Shown here: positions 5,244 through 19,476 of the stretch, piece after piece
Numbering within the stretch: position 1 is the first letter of the stretch
How the letters are laid out: each line of letters begins with the position of its first letter
Virus record (IMG/VR): IMGVR_UViG_3300036668_000211
Span: 1-20,109 of that record
Origin: a virus
DNA length: 20,109 nt
Reading direction: 5' to 3' (one strand)
Translations under genes and position numbers: made by a program
The notes under the pieces: model-generated
The model's database searches: none
Told to the model about the DNA's origin: nothing
The model's input: only the letters and a program-made list of their open reading frames with translations

Positions 5244-6278
5244 ATGGCAACATTAAACCAAGTATGTATTCCTGCAGGCAGAATTGTAGAAGGAGTTTTT
5301 GAATTAAGCTCAATTGAAGAGGCTTTATCAATTTCATCTTTAAAGTATAATACTACTTTACAAGTAGATGAAGATAGCATATTTTTAGCTCCCGAAGCGA
5401 TTACGGATGCAGTAGCAATGGCAGGATGTGAGATTACGGAATCTTGCGACTTACCAGCTGTATTAGAATCAAACCAGTATAATTTCATGGCGGGTTGTGA
5501 TTTATGTTTAAATGAATTGACTTCCAACGAAAAGAAAGTTTTTGGAATTAACGTATCAAAACCAGAACCAACAGCGGCTTTGTCTTCTCGTTACGAAACT
5601 GGATTTATTACTAAAATTTTAAATTCAACACGTAAAATTAATTGGTTAGGGTCGAAAGATTATGTAGCTGCTAATTTAGCAAATGCAGCATTGTTGCCAA
5701 ACTACATTAAAGCGGATGGAATCTGGACTAAAATCGTCGCCCTTTCTCCTGCAGCTCCACGTTACACAATTGACAAAAATGCTGAGTTAACAAAAACTTT
5801 GCAAACTACATGGACAGGGGATGAGGTTTTAGACGTTATTGAAGAGATGCGTTTATTACAATCAGATACAATGAGGGCGGTTGTGGATACTTTAAAATTC
5901 GTACAAATTACAGCTGAAATGTATGACGCTCTTATTCGCTCTATGCGTTTAAAAGACTTCGACTTATGTTGTGTAGGCTCTTTAGCTTCGCAAGTTGCGG
6001 GGGGTGTTGAAGTTCCTGTAATTTTATACGGAGATTTAACGATAGTTAAGTACACTGAATTAAGCGCCGCTATTCGTGATTTAGCACTTGTTGGAGATGC
6101 TTGGAATTTGCCGAATAGAGTAGTTATGTCTTTAGGTTTGCCTATCGTAAACTACACTCAAGCAGGTTCATTTGAAGAGGAATTTACAGCCGTAAACGGT
6201 AAGTATTTAGCTTCTTACAGTTTAACAACTGCAATTGTAGACCCTTTTCCAGCGGACTTCTACGTATTAGGCTACTAA
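5244..6278 (+). CDS. Probable major capsid protein
   Basis: This is a 344-residue protein of mixed alpha/beta composition, a normal size for an HK97-fold capsid subunit. It is directly downstream of the protease and scaffold-like genes. The central helix around residues 185-215 and a C-terminal run of strands ending in ADFYVLGY resemble the P-domain and A-domain endings of capsid proteins. It has several cysteines (for example near residues 59, 66, 83 and 86), unusual for a capsid but found in some Bacteroidota phage capsids. The assignment rests on size, composition and order. No catalytic motif is present. Terminator-like hairpins just inside the following genes fit a need for high expression of this one. 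Confidence 0.7.
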   Translation: MATLNQVCIPAGRIVEGVFELSSIEEALSISSLKYNTTLQVDEDSIFLAPEAITDAVAMAGCEITESCDLPAVLESNQYNFMAGCDLCLNELTSNEKKVFGINVSKPEPTAALSSRYETGFITKILNSTRKINWLGSKDYVAANLANAALLPNYIKADGIWTKIVALSPAAPRYTIDKNAELTKTLQTTWTGDEVLDVIEEMRLLQSDTMRAVVDTLKFVQITAEMYDALIRSMRLKDFDLCCVGSLASQVAGGVEVPVILYGDLTIVKYTELSAAIRDLALVGDAWNLPNRVVMSLGLPIVNYTQAGSFEEEFTAVNGKYLASYSLTTAIVDPFPADFYVLGY

Positions 6279-6296: not shown

Positions 6297-6911
6297 ATGG
6301 CTTTATGTTATAAACCAGCGGACGTATTAAAAGCGTGCGACTCATCAGATTTAAACGCCCTCTCAGGGGGGCTTTTAATAAATTTAAAAGCGTTTAAAGC
6401 TGTAAAAGCGACAGGTAAGAAATTTACTTATGACGATATTACAGTAATTGACCCGACTACAAATGCTTATCCTGTTGCAGGTAGTGATTACTATCCTATA
6501 CTAATAGAATGGGAGAAAAACGCGGTAAAACCTAATTACGAGGTTGTTTCTAGTGATGTTAAAAAAGACACTTATGTACAAGTTGCAAGCAGTTTAATTA
6601 TTGCAAACAGTGAAAGCGATGCAGGAAAAGAAACGCTTATGTCTTTAGCTACTGAAAAATATGTATTTGTTTATGCACTTTCTGGAGTATCTGACGAATT
6701 AGATACTTATCAAGTTTTAGGCTCTAAAAATGGCTTACAATTTGTAGTTGAACCAACTAGTGACGAAGTAGGTGGACGTGTTACAGGAACATTAAGAAGT
6801 CTTAACGGTGGAGCAGAGGGAAATCCAAACGGATATAACTTTTTATTAGATACTGGACTACCAGCAACAGAAACGTTATTTAACAACCGTTTTAGCACGG
6901 TCGTAATTTAA
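6297..6911 (+). CDS. Probable tail tube or head-associated structural protein
   Basis: This is a 204-residue, beta-rich protein without enzyme motifs. The C-terminal half contains alternating strands and Gly/Asn-rich turns (around residues 140-185), as in tail tube subunits or head decoration proteins. It starts 18 bases after the capsid gene, behind an A-rich leader, and its stop overlaps the next start (TAATG). A GC-rich hairpin followed by TTTT sits only about 60 bases into the gene. The structural role is inferred from composition and position, and the tail tube call is tentative. Confidence 0.55.
   Translation: MALCYKPADVLKACDSSDLNALSGGLLINLKAFKAVKATGKKFTYDDITVIDPTTNAYPVAGSDYYPILIEWEKNAVKPNYEVVSSDVKKDTYVQVASSLIIANSESDAGKETLMSLATEKYVFVYALSGVSDELDTYQVLGSKNGLQFVVEPTSDEVGGRVTGTLRSLNGGAEGNPNGYNFLLDTGLPATETLFNNRFSTVVI
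6357..6376 (+). terminator. Terminator-like hairpin inside the gene after the capsid gene
   Basis: GCCCTC (6357-6362) pairs with GGGGGC (6367-6372) over a four-base loop (one G-U pair), followed directly by TTTT at 6373-6376. It lies about 60 bases into the 6297 gene. It resembles a weak intrinsic terminator and could shorten part of the transcripts leaving the capsid gene. Translating ribosomes may suppress it. Confidence 0.45.
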
Positions 6912-7318
6912 TGACTAGGGAAGAATTTAACGCCTTGCCTGTAGAGGTAAGGCGTTTTATATCTAACCACGCGGGTTGTTTAGGTTGTGGCGGAAATGCG
7001 GAACAGAAACTAACTAAAGCCTACGAGCTTTATAAAACACAAAGAAAAATGAAAGCATACCAATTACACGGTGGTGGTATTAATTATCTTAAAGACGGTC
7101 AAAAAGGCGTATTATATGCTATTGATCAAAACGATACAGCGGATAGCACACGCCAAAAAATAGAAATTGCAAAAGCAATATACAAGGCTAGTCCTCACGT
7201 GTTTACAATATTTGATAAAGATGCAATTTCTGAATTGTTAGAAAGTTTAAAGCCTGCTGAAATTGTTAATCTTGACAATGTTCAGAAAAGACAAAAAAAC
7301 GGAAAATTTAAAAAATAA
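6911..7318 (+). CDS. Conserved-type phage protein of unknown function
   Basis: This 135-residue protein sits between structural genes. The N-terminus carries a GCLGCGG motif around residues 22-28 (one CxxC pair), followed by a charged helical region and a basic C-terminal tail ending KNGKFKK. A single CxxC is not enough to claim a zinc site without partners. It starts in the TAATG overlap with the previous gene and ends five bases before the portal gene. A strong terminator-like hairpin occupies its first 50 bases. I do not recognise the family. A head-tail joining or assembly role is possible from position only. Confidence 0.75.
   Translation: MTREEFNALPVEVRRFISNHAGCLGCGGNAEQKLTKAYELYKTQRKMKAYQLHGGGINYLKDGQKGVLYAIDQNDTADSTRQKIEIAKAIYKASPHVFTIFDKDAISELLESLKPAEIVNLDNVQKRQKNGKFKK
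6929..6958 (+). terminator. Strong terminator-like hairpin at the start of a coding region
   Basis: An 11-base arm (6929-6939) pairs with 6946-6956 with only one G-U pair, over a six-base loop (6940-6945). The stem runs into a T tract (6955-6958). The structure is as good as many intrinsic terminators. It begins just 18 bases after the start codon of the 6911 gene, so it may serve as the partial terminator of the capsid/6297 transcript. Confidence 0.6.
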
Positions 7319-7323
7319 AAATT

Positions 7324-8364
7324 ATGTTTACAGACTTTTTTAAAGTCAAAGGCAAAAAGAAAAGAAAAGCCGTCGATACTAAGGGATATGTCCAATTAGA
7401 CGGCGGCTTATTTTTTTCCAACCTTGACGAAGCGTATTTAAATAGTCCAACGGCAACAATGTCGCTTTTAAAATTCCACGAGTACGCCGTACCTGCTAAT
7501 CTAATGCAGAAGTATCAGGAACTTTGGAAAAAAATAGAAAGCGATTACATACGTTACGGATATTATATGATATTAGTATCTTATAATGTGGATGCTGAAG
7601 CTATACAATGGGATTATTTAAACCCTAAAAAATTTCTAGTTAAAGATTTTGATGACAACGATAATGCATCGACTTTTATTAACATCATTTCGAACAAAGA
7701 ATATCCAACTTTCAACAGCTCAAAAACAGTAGTAAGGTCGCAATTTGAAAAGCAAGGTTTTAGTAAGTTTGCGGGTCAAATCTATATGTATAACGACAGC
7801 TCATTACCTTATAGAGTAACTCCAATGTATAGCGTTTTAAAGTGGATGCGTACAGAAGCAGATGCATCTACTTACATCGATAAGGCTTGTGATAATGCGA
7901 TGTTTGGAAACAATATTTTTATAGTTAAAAAATCAAGTTCCGCAACAGAAACAGAAATAGCAGTTTTAGAAAGTGTAAAAGAAGCGATTAGCTCCACAAA
8001 AGGAGTTGATGAAGCAGGTCAAAATTTACTAATTGAATATAGCGGAGATATTGATGACGTTTCTAAATTACTTTCTAAAGTTTCAATTTCAAATGATTTT
8101 GAAGTAGACTTGTTGAATAATGCGGATGCAAAAGCAAGCGAAAAGATAGCAATGGCTTGTTATGGTTTTCCTTTGATTTTGGTAAAACAAAGCGAAGGAA
8201 TATTTGGAAATAGTGGAGAAGCTATTACGGTGGCTACTAATGAATGGGCAAAAACGTGCCAAAAAGAAGCCGTTAATATTTTAGACGGATTAAAAAAAAT
8301 AGGCTTTCAAATAACAAAAGAAAAAAATGATACCATTAACAATCCCAACAATACAGGAGCTTAA
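7324..8364 (+). CDS. Probable portal protein
   Basis: This 346-residue protein has portal-like architecture. The N-terminus is basic. A central segment around residues 160-200 (YRVTPMYSVLKWMRTEADAS) matches the pattern in portals where a long helix follows a 'Y..SP' turn. A later motif around 275-310 (ASEKIAMACYGFPLILV, then an N-x-GEA-rich helix) corresponds to the 'I..AFGVPP.LLG....N.EE' segment of HK97-type portals. Portals form the dodecameric DNA gate of the head. It is somewhat short for the family (usually 400 or more) and follows rather than precedes the capsid gene. The connector gene overlaps its 3' end by 38 bases. Confidence 0.72.
   Translation: MFTDFFKVKGKKKRKAVDTKGYVQLDGGLFFSNLDEAYLNSPTATMSLLKFHEYAVPANLMQKYQELWKKIESDYIRYGYYMILVSYNVDAEAIQWDYLNPKKFLVKDFDDNDNASTFINIISNKEYPTFNSSKTVVRSQFEKQGFSKFAGQIYMYNDSSLPYRVTPMYSVLKWMRTEADASTYIDKACDNAMFGNNIFIVKKSSSATETEIAVLESVKEAISSTKGVDEAGQNLLIEYSGDIDDVSKLLSKVSISNDFEVDLLNNADAKASEKIAMACYGFPLILVKQSEGIFGNSGEAITVATNEWAKTCQKEAVNILDGLKKIGFQITKEKNDTINNPNNTGA
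7333..7417 (+). terminator. Two stacked hairpins at the start of the portal gene, the second ending in a T tract
   Basis: GACTTT (7333-7338) pairs with AAAGTC (7342-7347) over a TTT loop. Just downstream AAGCC plus GTC (7367-7374) pairs with GAC and GGCTT (7399-7401 and 7405-7409) with a three-base bulge, followed by seven T at 7411-7417. Both lie inside the first 95 bases of the portal gene. They could act as a partial terminator or limit portal translation, since only 12 copies are needed per head. Confidence 0.4.
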
Positions 8365-8782
8365 AGAATTTTACCCTGTTTCTACCTCCATAACGGACGA
8401 TAAAAGGCAGCAATTATTTGACTACGTGAAAAACCACGTTTTAATTAAAATGTTTGGATTTCAAGCGGCTACGCAGATAATAGAGGGTGCTATCGTAGGC
8501 GGTGCAAGTTCTACATTTATAGGATTTCAAAAATTTACAGCTTTATTATGCGCATACCAAGAGATAAAAGACCCTTTAGTAAGCACTAACTTCGGAGCTA
8601 AAATAATCGACAGAACGGGCGCAATAAACCCGACTAACGGACAGAAAAGCATCACTCTTATAGATATTGAAAATACAATTTCAATACATTATAAAACAGC
8701 TTTAGTATTAATTAACGAAAATAATTGTCAAGACGTGCCTAATTGGGGCGGATACTTTTCTTATAAAATTTCTCGATTATGA
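8327..8782 (+). CDS. Head-tail connector (gp6-like adaptor) candidate
   Basis: This 151-residue protein starts inside the 3' end of the portal gene and overlaps the fibre gene by ATGA. Its N-terminus (IPTIQELKEFYPVSTSITDD) followed by helices and a middle Gly/Ala-rich turn resembles small, mostly helical head-completion or connector proteins. These bind under the portal to receive the tail. The short length and position directly after the portal are the main reasons for the call. No catalytic motif is visible. Confidence 0.55.
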   Translation: MIPLTIPTIQELKEFYPVSTSITDDKRQQLFDYVKNHVLIKMFGFQAATQIIEGAIVGGASSTFIGFQKFTALLCAYQEIKDPLVSTNFGAKIIDRTGAINPTNGQKSITLIDIENTISIHYKTALVLINENNCQDVPNWGGYFSYKISRL

Positions 8783-10182
8783 TTGATCCATACGAATTTA
8801 ACGACGCAAATGCGCAAGGAGACAAAGAAGCTGTAATACTTCCAAACTTACCAAGTTTGGTAAATAAATTAAGTGCTGATGAAACCAATGGTATAAAAGA
8901 CAAGATTAACGAAATTGCGCAAGTAGTTAATGTAATTGATCCCGATAATGCAAACTTACAAACTGTTACTAATAGCGGAAATATTACGGATAAAGAAATG
9001 ATAATTGTATCTGACGGATTAGTTCCTGACGACGTATTTAATCAGGCTGTATTTTCTAATAAAAGTTTTAAAGCAATAAATACCGATACAAACAATAGCA
9101 TTACTGTTTTATCTGATAAAATTCAAAGTGTAAAAACAGACGGGGGTTTTGAAAGTACGATTAACGTAAGTAATGCAGAACCAACGGAAACAGCAACGTA
9201 TGAACAAGTTAAGCCTAATAAGTCGGGTACTTATGCAATGACTGACGATGTAGGTGTAGCAACCCTGCAACAAGCCACAGCAGGAGCAAATAAGAATTTA
9301 GTTGATGGTATATTTCAAGCGGGAGAAGGAGCAGGAAACGGACAGACAGGTGTAAATGTTAATCAGTTTGGAGGCGAGGCAGGAGCAGGCAACATAGGAG
9401 ATAATCAAAATGCTTTAGGTGTAGGTGCAGGTGTTAACAACACAGGAGATAATCAAAATGCTTTAGGTGTAGGTGCAGGTATTGGCAACACAGGAGACTT
9501 TCAAAATGCTTTTGGACAGGGTGCAGGTATTGGCAACACAGGAAACCATCAAAATGCTTTTGGTGTGGATGCAGGACAAAATAATACAAAACAAGGTCAA
9601 AATGCATTCGGACAACAGGCAGGAAAAAACAACACAGGAGACTTTCAAAATGCTTTTGGACAGGGTGCAGGCTTTGGTAATATTTATGACGATGTAAACC
9701 TTTTCGGTCAAGAAACACAAGCAGACGAAAATGGTCAAACCGTTTTTAGAAGTTCAGGAGGTTTTATGACTAGATTATCTACCTTACTTTTAACCGCAAG
9801 TAGAAAGTATATTTTTCCAGATAAAAGTGGAACGTTTGCAATGTTGGATGACATAATTTTACCAATACCATACCAAAGCATCGTTAACCTTGGAGACGTA
9901 ACGGGAGCGGTTAGTATTAATTGGAATTTAGGAGTAAAACACAAACTAAATTTAACTGGAAATATTACAATAACACAATTAAATTTTGCAGATTACGAGG
10001 GGCAAAAAGTACAGGAATTAGAGATTACAAGTTCCGACCCTGCACACACAATTACTTGGGTTTCTGTAAATCCAGCGGATTTTACGGACGCAATAGATTT
10101 TAATGAACCCTTTAGGTTCAATAACGTATCCATAAGATTGTTAAGGGGTTCTATTTTTCAATCAAATAATCTAGTAAGATAA
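8779..10182 (+). CDS. Tail fibre protein with seven 16-residue Gly-rich repeats
   Basis: This is a 467-residue protein. Residues 1-160 are acidic and Asn/Thr-rich, ending in KSGTYAMTDDV, a motif common in Bacteroidota phage fibres. Residues 204-315 are seven tandem 16-residue units of the type NNTGDxQNAFGxGAGx, the last one degenerate. They suggest a trimeric beta-roll or beta-helix shaft like those in bacterial trimeric adhesins. A second KSGTFAMLDDI motif follows near residue 352, then a beta-rich C-terminal domain that ends the protein. A fibre that reaches the host surface is the natural reading. It starts in an ATGA overlap with the connector gene and its stop overlaps the next start (TAATG). 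Confidence 0.82.
   Translation: MIDPYEFNDANAQGDKEAVILPNLPSLVNKLSADETNGIKDKINEIAQVVNVIDPDNANLQTVTNSGNITDKEMIIVSDGLVPDDVFNQAVFSNKSFKAINTDTNNSITVLSDKIQSVKTDGGFESTINVSNAEPTETATYEQVKPNKSGTYAMTDDVGVATLQQATAGANKNLVDGIFQAGEGAGNGQTGVNVNQFGGEAGAGNIGDNQNALGVGAGVNNTGDNQNALGVGAGIGNTGDFQNAFGQGAGIGNTGNHQNAFGVDAGQNNTKQGQNAFGQQAGKNNTGDFQNAFGQGAGFGNIYDDVNLFGQETQADENGQTVFRSSGGFMTRLSTLLLTASRKYIFPDKSGTFAMLDDIILPIPYQSIVNLGDVTGAVSINWNLGVKHKLNLTGNITITQLNFADYEGQKVQELEITSSDPAHTITWVSVNPADFTDAIDFNEPFRFNNVSIRLLRGSIFQSNNLVR
8842..8860 (+). repeat. Perfect 8-bp inverted repeat near the start of the fibre gene
   Basis: CCAAACTT (8842-8849) and AAGTTTGG (8853-8860) form a perfect stem over a three-base loop, 63 bases into the fibre gene. 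No T tract follows, so it is not terminator-like. It may be RNA structure affecting translation, or chance. Confidence 0.4.
9388..9723 (+). repeat. Seven tandem 48-bp repeats in the fibre gene
   Basis: In-frame 48-bp units begin at 9388, 9436, 9484, 9532, 9580, 9628 and 9676. Units 1-2 and units 3 and 6 are nearly identical pairs, while units 5 and 7 have diverged. The mosaic similarity suggests duplication and recombination between units. Repeat number may vary between isolates, changing fibre length. Confidence 0.92.
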
Positions 10183-10976
10183 TGGGAAGCTTCGGAAATA
10201 AAATGGTGGCGTTTAGTGGTAGGAAATTGTTTTTGGACACTTTTTCTGGTGCAGCGGTTGGATGGTCTTTGCAGAATTTAAAAGAAACAACGGTTTTTGT
10301 GGTAAGAGTCCGTAGAAGCTCCGATAATGTAGAACAAGATTTTAGAGCCATAGAAATTACAAACGGTGCTTTATTAACTTTTGTAGGAGCTAATGATGGA
10401 TTTGTAACCACAATTTACGACCAAGTAGGAAGTAATAATTTTACGCAAGTAACCACAACAAGGCAAGGTTTCTTGGTAAATGCAGGAGTTTTAAATTTAC
10501 TAAACGGAAAACCAGTGATTTTAAGAAATACAGTCGGAGGAGGTTATATTTCGAGTTATGCACCAAATGGCGCAACTGCAAAAGGTTTATTTTATCTAGG
10601 AAGAATGGGAAATGCTTTTAATCAAGGTATAATGATTGGTACTTTAAATAATGGGGCTTCTTACATTTATAACAGCCAAATAAATGGGAGCAACACAAAT
10701 GTAAATTCAAATGCTACACTTTCTAATCAAAAAATAAACGGGTCTACTTTTACATACAGCACCCTTGGAGATGTCTATTCACAAACTCAAAATCAAAGTT
10801 TAATAGCGGCTAACATTATCTTTAATTTCGTGAGTAATTCATTATCCTTAGGTTATAGGTTTACAAATCCTTCTACCCTTGGAATGTGGAGTTTTCAAGA
10901 ATTGGTAATATTTGATAATACAAACGAAACAGCCGCAAAAGAAAATAACATTAACTCAAGATACAGCATATACTAA
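10182..10976 (+). CDS. Lectin/LamG-like adhesin, candidate receptor-binding protein
   Basis: This is a 264-residue beta-rich protein. The segment around residues 38-80 (VRVRRSSDNVEQDF, then FVGANDGFVTTIYDQVGSNN) matches a pattern I know from concanavalin-like and arabinofuranosidase-B-type beta-sandwich domains of Bacteroidota. There RVRRSSDN and 'WYDQSG' are hallmarks. Here the W is replaced by I (IYDQVG). The C-terminal WSFQELVIFDN and final helix also fit such sandwiches. It follows the fibre gene with a TAATG overlap, so it is probably the fibre tip or a separate adhesin that binds surface glycan. Hydrolase activity is not claimed. Confidence 0.7.
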   Translation: MGSFGNKMVAFSGRKLFLDTFSGAAVGWSLQNLKETTVFVVRVRRSSDNVEQDFRAIEITNGALLTFVGANDGFVTTIYDQVGSNNFTQVTTTRQGFLVNAGVLNLLNGKPVILRNTVGGGYISSYAPNGATAKGLFYLGRMGNAFNQGIMIGTLNNGASYIYNSQINGSNTNVNSNATLSNQKINGSTFTYSTLGDVYSQTQNQSLIAANIIFNFVSNSLSLGYRFTNPSTLGMWSFQELVIFDNTNETAAKENNINSRYSIY

Positions 10977-12101: not shown

Positions 12102-12110
12102 AATTAAATA

Positions 12111-12140
12111 AACCCGTTACAAATCGTAACGGGTTTTTTT
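12111..12140 (+). terminator. Bidirectional intrinsic terminator
   Basis: A perfect 10-bp stem (12111-12120 with 12126-12135) with a five-base loop is followed by seven T (12134-12140). Read from the other strand the same stem is followed by a T-rich tract. It separates the converging late operon and the leftward small-gene operon. Confidence 0.92.
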
Positions 12141-18320: not shown

Positions 18321-18397
18321 AGTCGGAAGTTAACAAATTAAAGAAATTATTAAGACTCTTTAGATGTGCCGACTCACATTTATTGGGTCTTTTTTTT
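18321..18397 (+). promoter_or_regulatory. Structured leader (attenuator-like) of the methyltransferase gene
   Basis: Basal stem: 18352-18358 (AAGACTC) with 18385-18391 (GGGTCTT). Upper stem: ATGTG (18364-18368) with CACAT (18375-18379). The apical loop is CCGACT (18369-18374), exactly complementary to AGTCGG at 18321-18326. Eight T (18390-18397) follow the basal stem, so the element can read as a terminator. Pairing of the loop with the upstream six bases could give a pseudoknot or alternative fold that decides read-through. Confidence 0.5.
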
Positions 18398-18408
18398 ATA
18401 GAATAAAT

Positions 18409-19476
18409 ATGCACAAATTTAACTACAACTGGAATTTAAAAGATACAATTTTCACTAAAGACAAAGGCAAAGTATTTAGTTGCTTTGCGTGCGGTGGTGG
18501 TTCAACAATGGGTTATAAACTCGCTGGTTTTGACGTTATTGGTCACAATGATATTGACAAAAAAATGATTGAAGTTTATAAAGAAAATCACAATCCTGAA
18601 TTTAGTTTTTTGGAATCAATTACAACTTTTGCCAAACGTAAAGATTTACCAAAAGAACTTTATAATCTTGATATTTTGGACGGTTCTCCACCTTGTAGCT
18701 CTTTTAGTATGGCAGGAAATAGAGAAAAAGATTGGGGCAAAAAAAAGGTATTTCGTGAAGGTCAAGCTGAACAGATTTTAGATACATTATTTTTTGATTT
18801 TATTGATTTAGCAAAAGAGTTGCAACCTAAAGTTGTAGTTACTGAAAATGTAAAAGGTTTACTTATGGGGGAAGCTAAAGCCTATGTTCGTAAAATTTAT
18901 GAAGAATTTGATAAAGCTGGTTATTATTGTCAACACTTTTTATTAGATGCTTCAAAAATGGGAGTTCCTCAAAGAAGGGAAAGAGTGTTCTTTATTTGTT
19001 TACGAAAAGATTTAGCAAAACCATTTTTGCATTTTGCGGATATGTTTACCGAAATTCCTAAAATTGAAATGGTTTTTAAAGATAGGCTTATTTTATTTGG
19101 GGAAATATTTGAAAAAAATGGAAAAGGAGAGCAATCTATACCACCTTCATATTCTAAATACTATGATTTACGATTAATTAAAGAATATTGCATGAGCCAA
19201 ACTACTATGAGAATTGAAAATAAAGAAAAGTTTTTTTCAGTAAAGTACATTTCAAAATATAAAGTTTTGAATACAATAACCGGGGGAGAAAAAAACATGT
19301 TGCACGATGAAAAAAGAACTTTATCAAAAAGTGAAATTATAAAAGGTGGTAGTTTTCCAAAAGATTACAATTTTTTAAACAATAAACCAGGTTATTTAAT
19401 TGGAATGTCAGTACCTCCAATAATGACAGCGCAAATTGCATCAAAAATTTATGAACAATGGTTGTCTAAAATATGA
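18409..19476 (+). CDS. C5-cytosine DNA methyltransferase
   Basis: I chose the ATG at 18409 (355 residues). The upstream in-frame ATG at 18364 lies inside the leader hairpin and would add 15 residues unlike the family. Motif I is CFACGGGSTMGYKLAGF (residues 25-41, AdoMet site). Motif IV is SPPCSSFS with the catalytic Cys96. Motif VI is TENV with Glu146, and motif VIII is GVPQRRERV (185-193). Motifs IX-X are at the end, including PPIMTAQIASKIYEQWL. The stretch between motifs VIII and IX (about 200-310) is the likely target recognition domain. No cognate restriction gene is seen, so it is probably an orphan phage methyltransferase protecting DNA from host restriction. The next gene overlaps by ATGA. 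Confidence 0.93.
   Translation: MHKFNYNWNLKDTIFTKDKGKVFSCFACGGGSTMGYKLAGFDVIGHNDIDKKMIEVYKENHNPEFSFLESITTFAKRKDLPKELYNLDILDGSPPCSSFSMAGNREKDWGKKKVFREGQAEQILDTLFFDFIDLAKELQPKVVVTENVKGLLMGEAKAYVRKIYEEFDKAGYYCQHFLLDASKMGVPQRRERVFFICLRKDLAKPFLHFADMFTEIPKIEMVFKDRLILFGEIFEKNGKGEQSIPPSYSKYYDLRLIKEYCMSQTTMRIENKEKFFSVKYISKYKVLNTITGGEKNMLHDEKRTLSKSEIIKGGSFPKDYNFLNNKPGYLIGMSVPPIMTAQIASKIYEQWLSKI

Follow-up and report, generated by a model that had tools for sequence, protein, structure and literature searches.

Conserved hairpins in the first codons of three consecutive genes after the capsid gene of a virus, the portal gene being the third: candidate leaky terminators

Li et al. (2015, PMC4824070) measured efficient transcription termination at sites that lie no more than 100 bp into a coding region, and terminators less than about 27 nt from a stop codon are repressed by ribosomes, tR2 being variably repressed in E. 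coli near stop codons (PMC4824070). In programmed differential mRNA decay of E. coli, of which menBCE is an example, protective hairpins are embedded near the 5' end of the downstream coding sequence and lack a U-tract by definition (Dar & Sorek 2018, PMC5927463). A third kind of element, the ribosome termination structure (RTS), is a stable structure soon after a stop codon (PMC7518266). Among phages, the T7 record carries an annotated terminator, Tphi, directly behind the capsid gene (gene 10). Here, three hairpins at successive gene junctions of an uncultivated-virus record are set beside these systems.

The DNA analyzed, hereafter the window, is the whole 20,109-base virus record IMGVR_UViG_3300036668_000211, positions 1 to 20,109, close relatives of which were not found in the annotated phage set searched. 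The four genes of concern lie on the plus strand. The probable major capsid gene (5244-6278, 344 aa) has a distant profile match (hhalign probability 67, E 5e-5) to capsids of isolates with the same gene order, including that of BU2-1, which has been annotated by structure as a major capsid. It is followed by a head-tail adaptor-like gene (6297-6911, 204 aa), the product of which matches gp04/gp05 of phi46:1 and the 'head-tail adaptor' family of Bacteroides phages (hhalign probability 59, E 9e-5); both profile matches are low in level yet significant. A small pre-portal gene of 135 aa (6911-7318) overlaps the stop of the 6297 gene, and then comes the portal gene (7324-8364, 346 aa; PHROG 11226 portal, E 6.5e-16). 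Direct homology search against annotated phages gave portal matches at 25-27% only and no match for the capsid, 6297 or 6911 proteins; no portal relative was found in the genome contigs searched, and AlphaFold gave models of the capsid and the adaptor that were too poor for use. A first-pass annotation of the window had described intergenic gaps as almost absent here, and this holds: they are 18, -1 and 5 nt at the capsid/6297, 6297/6911 and 6911/portal junctions, respectively.

Portals come in two lengths, 344-354 aa for the short form and 418-427 aa for the long one (window 7324-8364 and loci L003, L004, L005 and L009-L011), the difference being a block ahead of the conserved C-terminal tail, and the gene after the portal has a 38-nt overlap in all of these. 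At 8779-10976, the window has ORFs of 467 and 264 aa where the near relative L001 has a single ORF of 877 aa, which suggests, from the reading frames, recombination within a tail-fibre-like gene. At the start of a DNA methyltransferase ORF (18364-18409), a hairpin is followed by eight T (18371-18397), and a second in-frame ATG stands at 18409 behind an A/T-rich leader; the hairpin resembles a terminator or attenuator in a leader, and it may be at 18409 that the gene really starts. An ordinary bidirectional terminator between convergent genes (12110-12136) is intergenic and serves as a comparison.

All three hairpins lie on the plus strand. Hairpin 1 (6357-6372) has the stem GCCCTC-TCAG-GGGGGC with one G-U pair and the tail TTTTAATA; it is 60 nt into the 6297 ORF, just where the first-pass annotation had placed a stem plus T, and 79 nt past the capsid stop. 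A larger three-way fold (6346-6402, plus strand) can be drawn around it, consisting of a 12-bp outer stem (6346-6358/6390-6402) and a GCTTTTAA/TTAAAAGC stem; it would pair the U-tail of hairpin 1 with downstream sequence and is present in the window and near relatives and absent in divergent ones. Hairpin 2 (6929-6956), with a 4-nt loop, the tail TTATATC and a fold z of -6.2 against dinucleotide shuffles, begins 18 nt into the 6911 ORF and 18 nt past the stop of the 6297 gene; the position had been given correctly, and the stem proves to have 12 pairs, one of them G-U, rather than 11. Hairpin 3 (7366-7408) is formed by a 9-bp stem (AAGCCGTCG...CGGCGGCTT) with a 25-nt loop and the tail ATTTTTTT, 42 nt into the portal ORF and 48 nt past the 6911-gene stop. 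The portal structure had been reported as 7333-7417, a start that is too early; an A-rich 5' flank and the U-rich tail lengthen the pairing to 7359-7416. The three sequences are unrelated to one another, and an Rfam scan returned no family at or above the gathering cut-off, the portal site having two weak sub-threshold sRNA matches. In a bare count, terminator-like sites in the whole window numbered 16 against 12.5 expected, an excess that is not significant; the three sites are thus not credible from one sequence alone, and the case rests on conservation instead.

For this purpose, the window was compared with 14 IMG/VR loci encoding a portal at 56-97% identity, giving 15 sequences in total. 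The order capsid, 6297-like, 6911-like, portal is kept in all 14 loci, as far as the contigs reach. Hairpins 2 and 3 stand at the same codons in 15 of 15 sequences, hairpin 3 being weak in L011, and hairpin 1 is kept in all 13 relatives that cover its site (14/14 with the window). Against synonymous-codon shuffles that use the codon usage of each contig, the z of the sense fold ranges from -3.3 to -7.0 at the 6911 site and from -1.5 to -6.5 at the portal site (15 loci each), and from -1.4 to -3.8 at the 6297 site in the loci covering it. When the 11 genes of the module are aligned by order, the mean 5' z is -1.5 for 6297, -2.9 for 6911 and -2.8 for portal, and +0.5 to -1.15 for the remaining genes. 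Moreover, the sense strand folds better than the antisense in 10 of 11 distinct sequences at the 6297 site (p 0.002) and in 14 of 14 at the portal site (p 0.001), with no difference at the 6911 site.

Base changes among relatives point the same way. The stem of hairpin 2 has changes on both sides in three of 11 pairs, and 96.7% of alignment cells pair, compared with at most 57% in slid registers. In L009 and L011, AACGCC/GGCGTT has become AATTCC/GGAATT with pairing preserved, a double change that turns Ala into Ser in one arm and Arg into Asn in the other. Compensatory changes in hairpin 3 replace AAGCCGTC/GACGGCTT by AGACCGTC/GACGGTCT in L006 and by AACCCGTC/GGCGGGTT in L010. Covariation of hairpin 1 in one fixed register is weak because its stem is shifted by two bases in some relatives (L007, L008, L010 and L014); in L013 the stem is rebuilt with other bases. 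Loss of the stems in phages with conserved protein had been named beforehand as the outcome that would speak against a role for them, and the contrary was found, as the stems of L009 and L011 stay even where the protein changes. On the strength of these alignments, the hairpins are confirmed as real and as being under selection at the capsid/6297, 6297/6911 and 6911/portal junctions.

The tails are less uniform than the stems. T-richness exceeds the codon null behind hairpin 1 (P 0.003) and hairpin 3 (P 0.0035), and no excess is present behind hairpin 2 (P 0.18); the U-tract is strong at the portal site and moderate at the other two. In the most divergent relatives (L007, L013 and L014) the U-tails are weaker: the tail of hairpin 2 reads TCATAG in L013 and L014, and that of hairpin 1 is broken in L007 and L013, the stem being retained each time. 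Counted over genes, U-tailed hairpins in the first 100 nt number 18 against 2.0 expected, most of them orthologues of the sites described here, as compared with 15 against 10 in the remainder of genes and 4 against 3.1 in antisense. In addition, U-tailed hairpins are present at +32 to +42 of a small membrane-protein gene, which overlaps the gene before it, in G005, G006 and G007 (G005:35194, G006:258 and G007:8486; L042, L043 and L045), with sequences unrelated between relatives and codon positions nearly the same.

The junction has counterparts in culture. Distant relatives of the portal occur in Cellulophaga phage phi46:1 and in over 80 Bacteroides phages, and the capsid junction was compared in 13 isolates from Cellulophaga, Elizabethkingia and Bacteroides/Phocaeicola; the gene order capsid, adaptor(s), portal is common to the isolates examined and the window. 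A strong intergenic stem-plus-T terminator lies 13-28 nt past the capsid stop in 8 of the 13, although the independent cases are fewer than eight because some isolates are closely related, and phi46:1 has two further intergenic terminators, ahead of the second adaptor and ahead of the portal. In four isolates the gap measures about 20 nt and holds no such terminator; they have instead a selected coding hairpin in the first post-capsid gene (z -2.8 to -3.8) and a second one where the portal gene begins (z -2.0 to -4.5). Thus, the junction element occurs both in gaps and in coding sequence. A further set of isolates has a coding hairpin at about +25 in a pre-portal gene X, the N-terminal protein sequence of which is poorly conserved; in the Bacteroides phages these hairpins have no T-run. 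BU2-1, which infects B. uniformis, has a gap terminator as well as a hairpin in gene X, whereas BT24, a phage of Bacteroides thetaiotaomicron VPI-5482, has its hairpins in coding sequence. Homology between the 6911 family and gene X is not detectable, so that their hairpins may be independent. In Bacteroides, Phocaeicola and Cellulophaga phages (L048, L050-L057 and L059-L063), the capsid gene is followed by two or three adaptor-like paralogues in tandem, for which the annotation often gives no more than 'hypothetical' or 'head-tail adaptor'.

The three sites also belong to a wider class of 5'-coding hairpins. A hairpin of z < -2 is found in the first 120 nt of 20% of the genes of Bacteroidota phages, as compared with 2.4% at mid-gene; the 5' figure is 13.6% in Bacteroidales chromosomes, 6% in lambda and 17% in T7, neither of the last two having any at z < -3. 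Within the group of the window, hairpins of z < -2 are found in 21% of genes at gaps below 40 nt, 0% at 40-100 nt and 8.5% at larger gaps, and the enrichment at genes that begin less than 40 nt after another gene of the same strand has p 0.0002 when all Bacteroidota phages are pooled, gene starts being taken from ORF calling and some records being related. Close junctions of coliphages reach 7.5%, and close-following host genes (Bacteroidales, L068-L077) 28% (n = 32) against 0-11% otherwise, in a sample of 105 genes. About 90% of the stems start at least 20 nt past the upstream stop, the distance from the start codon is variable (11-73 nt), and the class is mostly devoid of a U-tract, with T-tails barely above the null. 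It looks like a junction element and not a start-codon element. A reading of all 5'-coding hairpins as terminators was discarded, as most have no U-tract, and termination cannot be the whole story for this class. A general junction code in Bacteroidota phages and perhaps their hosts, by which an RNA-selected hairpin in the first codons of the second of two abutting genes would set the product ratio, replacing intergenic terminators and Shine-Dalgarno tuning, is an idea that we hold to be rather doubtful.

As to function, the junction hairpins most likely give the upstream message its 3' end or shield that end, as leaky terminators or as decay ends. They would mark the end of the upstream cistron, and are most likely leaky intrinsic terminators that step the message down from capsid to portal, a reading to which we assign a probability of about 0.48. 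RNA polymerase would have passed the upstream stop codon, with the last ribosome gone or waiting at that stop, at least 18 nt upstream, and the following ribosome still behind, so that the hairpin would be free to fold. A fraction of polymerases would then halt at the U-rich tail, yielding capsid-only, then capsid-6297, then capsid-6297-6911 messages with a protected 3' end, while those that read through would allow the next protein to be produced; the message level would fall in steps, with far more capsid than portal made. The near-lack of intergenic space would account for the elements being placed inside the next gene, in its first 20-30 codons. Partial terminators inside coding starts, and a stepwise drop in message, had been put forward by the first-pass annotation, and the proposal is reasonable and has partial support. 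It fares well in its selected hairpins, each a stable G+C-rich stem in the sense RNA as in intrinsic terminators, in the U-tails beyond codon choice at 6297 and portal, in the gap terminators of distant isolates at the capsid junction and in the precedents of Li et al. (PMC4824070) and T7 Tphi; it fares less well at 6911, the tail of which is at the null, in divergent relatives, in which tails weaken, and in the wider class with its general lack of U-tracts. Hairpin 2, at 18 nt past a stop, also falls inside the range of variable tR2 repression, which counts against the terminator reading. We infer termination itself, its efficiency, the expression steps and a benefit to head stoichiometry.

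Other explanations have to be weighed against leaky termination. Amino-acid sequences may simply happen to yield inverted repeats that have no function of their own, as the insignificant excess of terminator-like sites in the window alone would allow; the synonymous null, the double changes, the amino-acid changes that preserve pairing and the stems re-formed in a shifted register nevertheless speak against such a coding by-product, as do the hairpins that persist in gene X, where protein is not conserved, and it is highly improbable. We judge it just as improbable that the inverted repeats act in DNA, as regulator sites or cruciforms. They are present on both strands, and the portal repeat is flanked by A/T on both sides, but the three sequences are mutually unrelated, folding of the sense strand is favoured at two sites, and G-U alternates with Watson-Crick pairs in the stems.

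Chief among the rivals is a barrier to decay without termination. Here the full message would be made, a nuclease would cut downstream, where protection is weaker, and 3'-5' exonucleases would degrade the RNA as far as the hairpin, which would be left as the 3' end of a surviving upstream cistron. Capsid and portal would thus come to the same gradient, but after transcription. Stems that outlast their U-tails are what such a barrier would predict, and the tight-junction class is mostly without T-runs genome-wide; T beyond codon choice at two of three sites, and full stem-plus-T terminators as the equivalent intergenic elements of the isolates, make it unlikely on balance. The phylum Bacteroidota is without Shine-Dalgarno sites. 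A hairpin just past the start might therein hold, slow or block a terminating or initiating ribosome and tune re-initiation. Such translational control would suit the enrichment of 5'-coding hairpins mainly in genes that follow another at a distance below 40 nt, both in phages and in Bacteroidales chromosomes, and the position of hairpin 2, which lies 18 nt into its gene and borders on the initiating ribosome; in a synthetic operon of E. coli, re-initiation does fall when a stable structure follows the stop (PMC7518266). However, the loose start-codon offsets, the depletion of the published RTS at gene gaps below 25 nt (PMC7518266) and the post-capsid element of the isolates, which sits in an untranslated gap with a U-run, leave translational control quite improbable. 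Since hairpins of the same class mostly have no U-tract, either decay barriers or translational control could yield the same pattern.

Leaky termination at these sites would show that a phage without spare intergenic space can set unequal protein ratios from one operon, RNA signal and protein sharing the same bases. The same junction exists in culturable Cellulophaga and Bacteroides phages, with gap terminators or coding hairpins, which opens the question to tests with laboratory phages. That coding hairpins go with tight junctions in Bacteroidota further bears on how single genes are tuned in operons without Shine-Dalgarno sites.

Among the known systems, the E. coli protective hairpins (PMC5927463) are alike in being stable, in lying early in the downstream coding sequence at an operon junction, in conservation across relatives, which here goes beyond protein coding, and in occurring several per operon in series with a stepwise fall expected. 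They differ in their offset, about 107 nt against 18-60 nt in the window, and in the uridine tract that they lack, at least two of the three window hairpins having a selected U-rich tail (ATTTTTTT at portal, TTTTAATA at 6297). The RTS (PMC7518266) shares a stable structure soon after a stop codon, but by definition the next same-strand gene must be 25 nt or more away, unless the neighbour is on the opposite strand, and closely spaced genes are depleted of it, whereas the junctions here measure 18, -1 and 5 nt and the class to which they belong is enriched at short gaps. T7 Tphi likewise stands directly after a capsid gene with essential genes downstream; it is intergenic and serves the phage RNA polymerase, in contrast to coding hairpins at three successive junctions. 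Finally, the terminators of phi46:1 and the Bacteroides/Phocaeicola phages occupy the same capsid junction, in the same gene order (capsid, adaptors, portal) and orientation, and differ in lying outside the coding sequence and in having longer T-runs.
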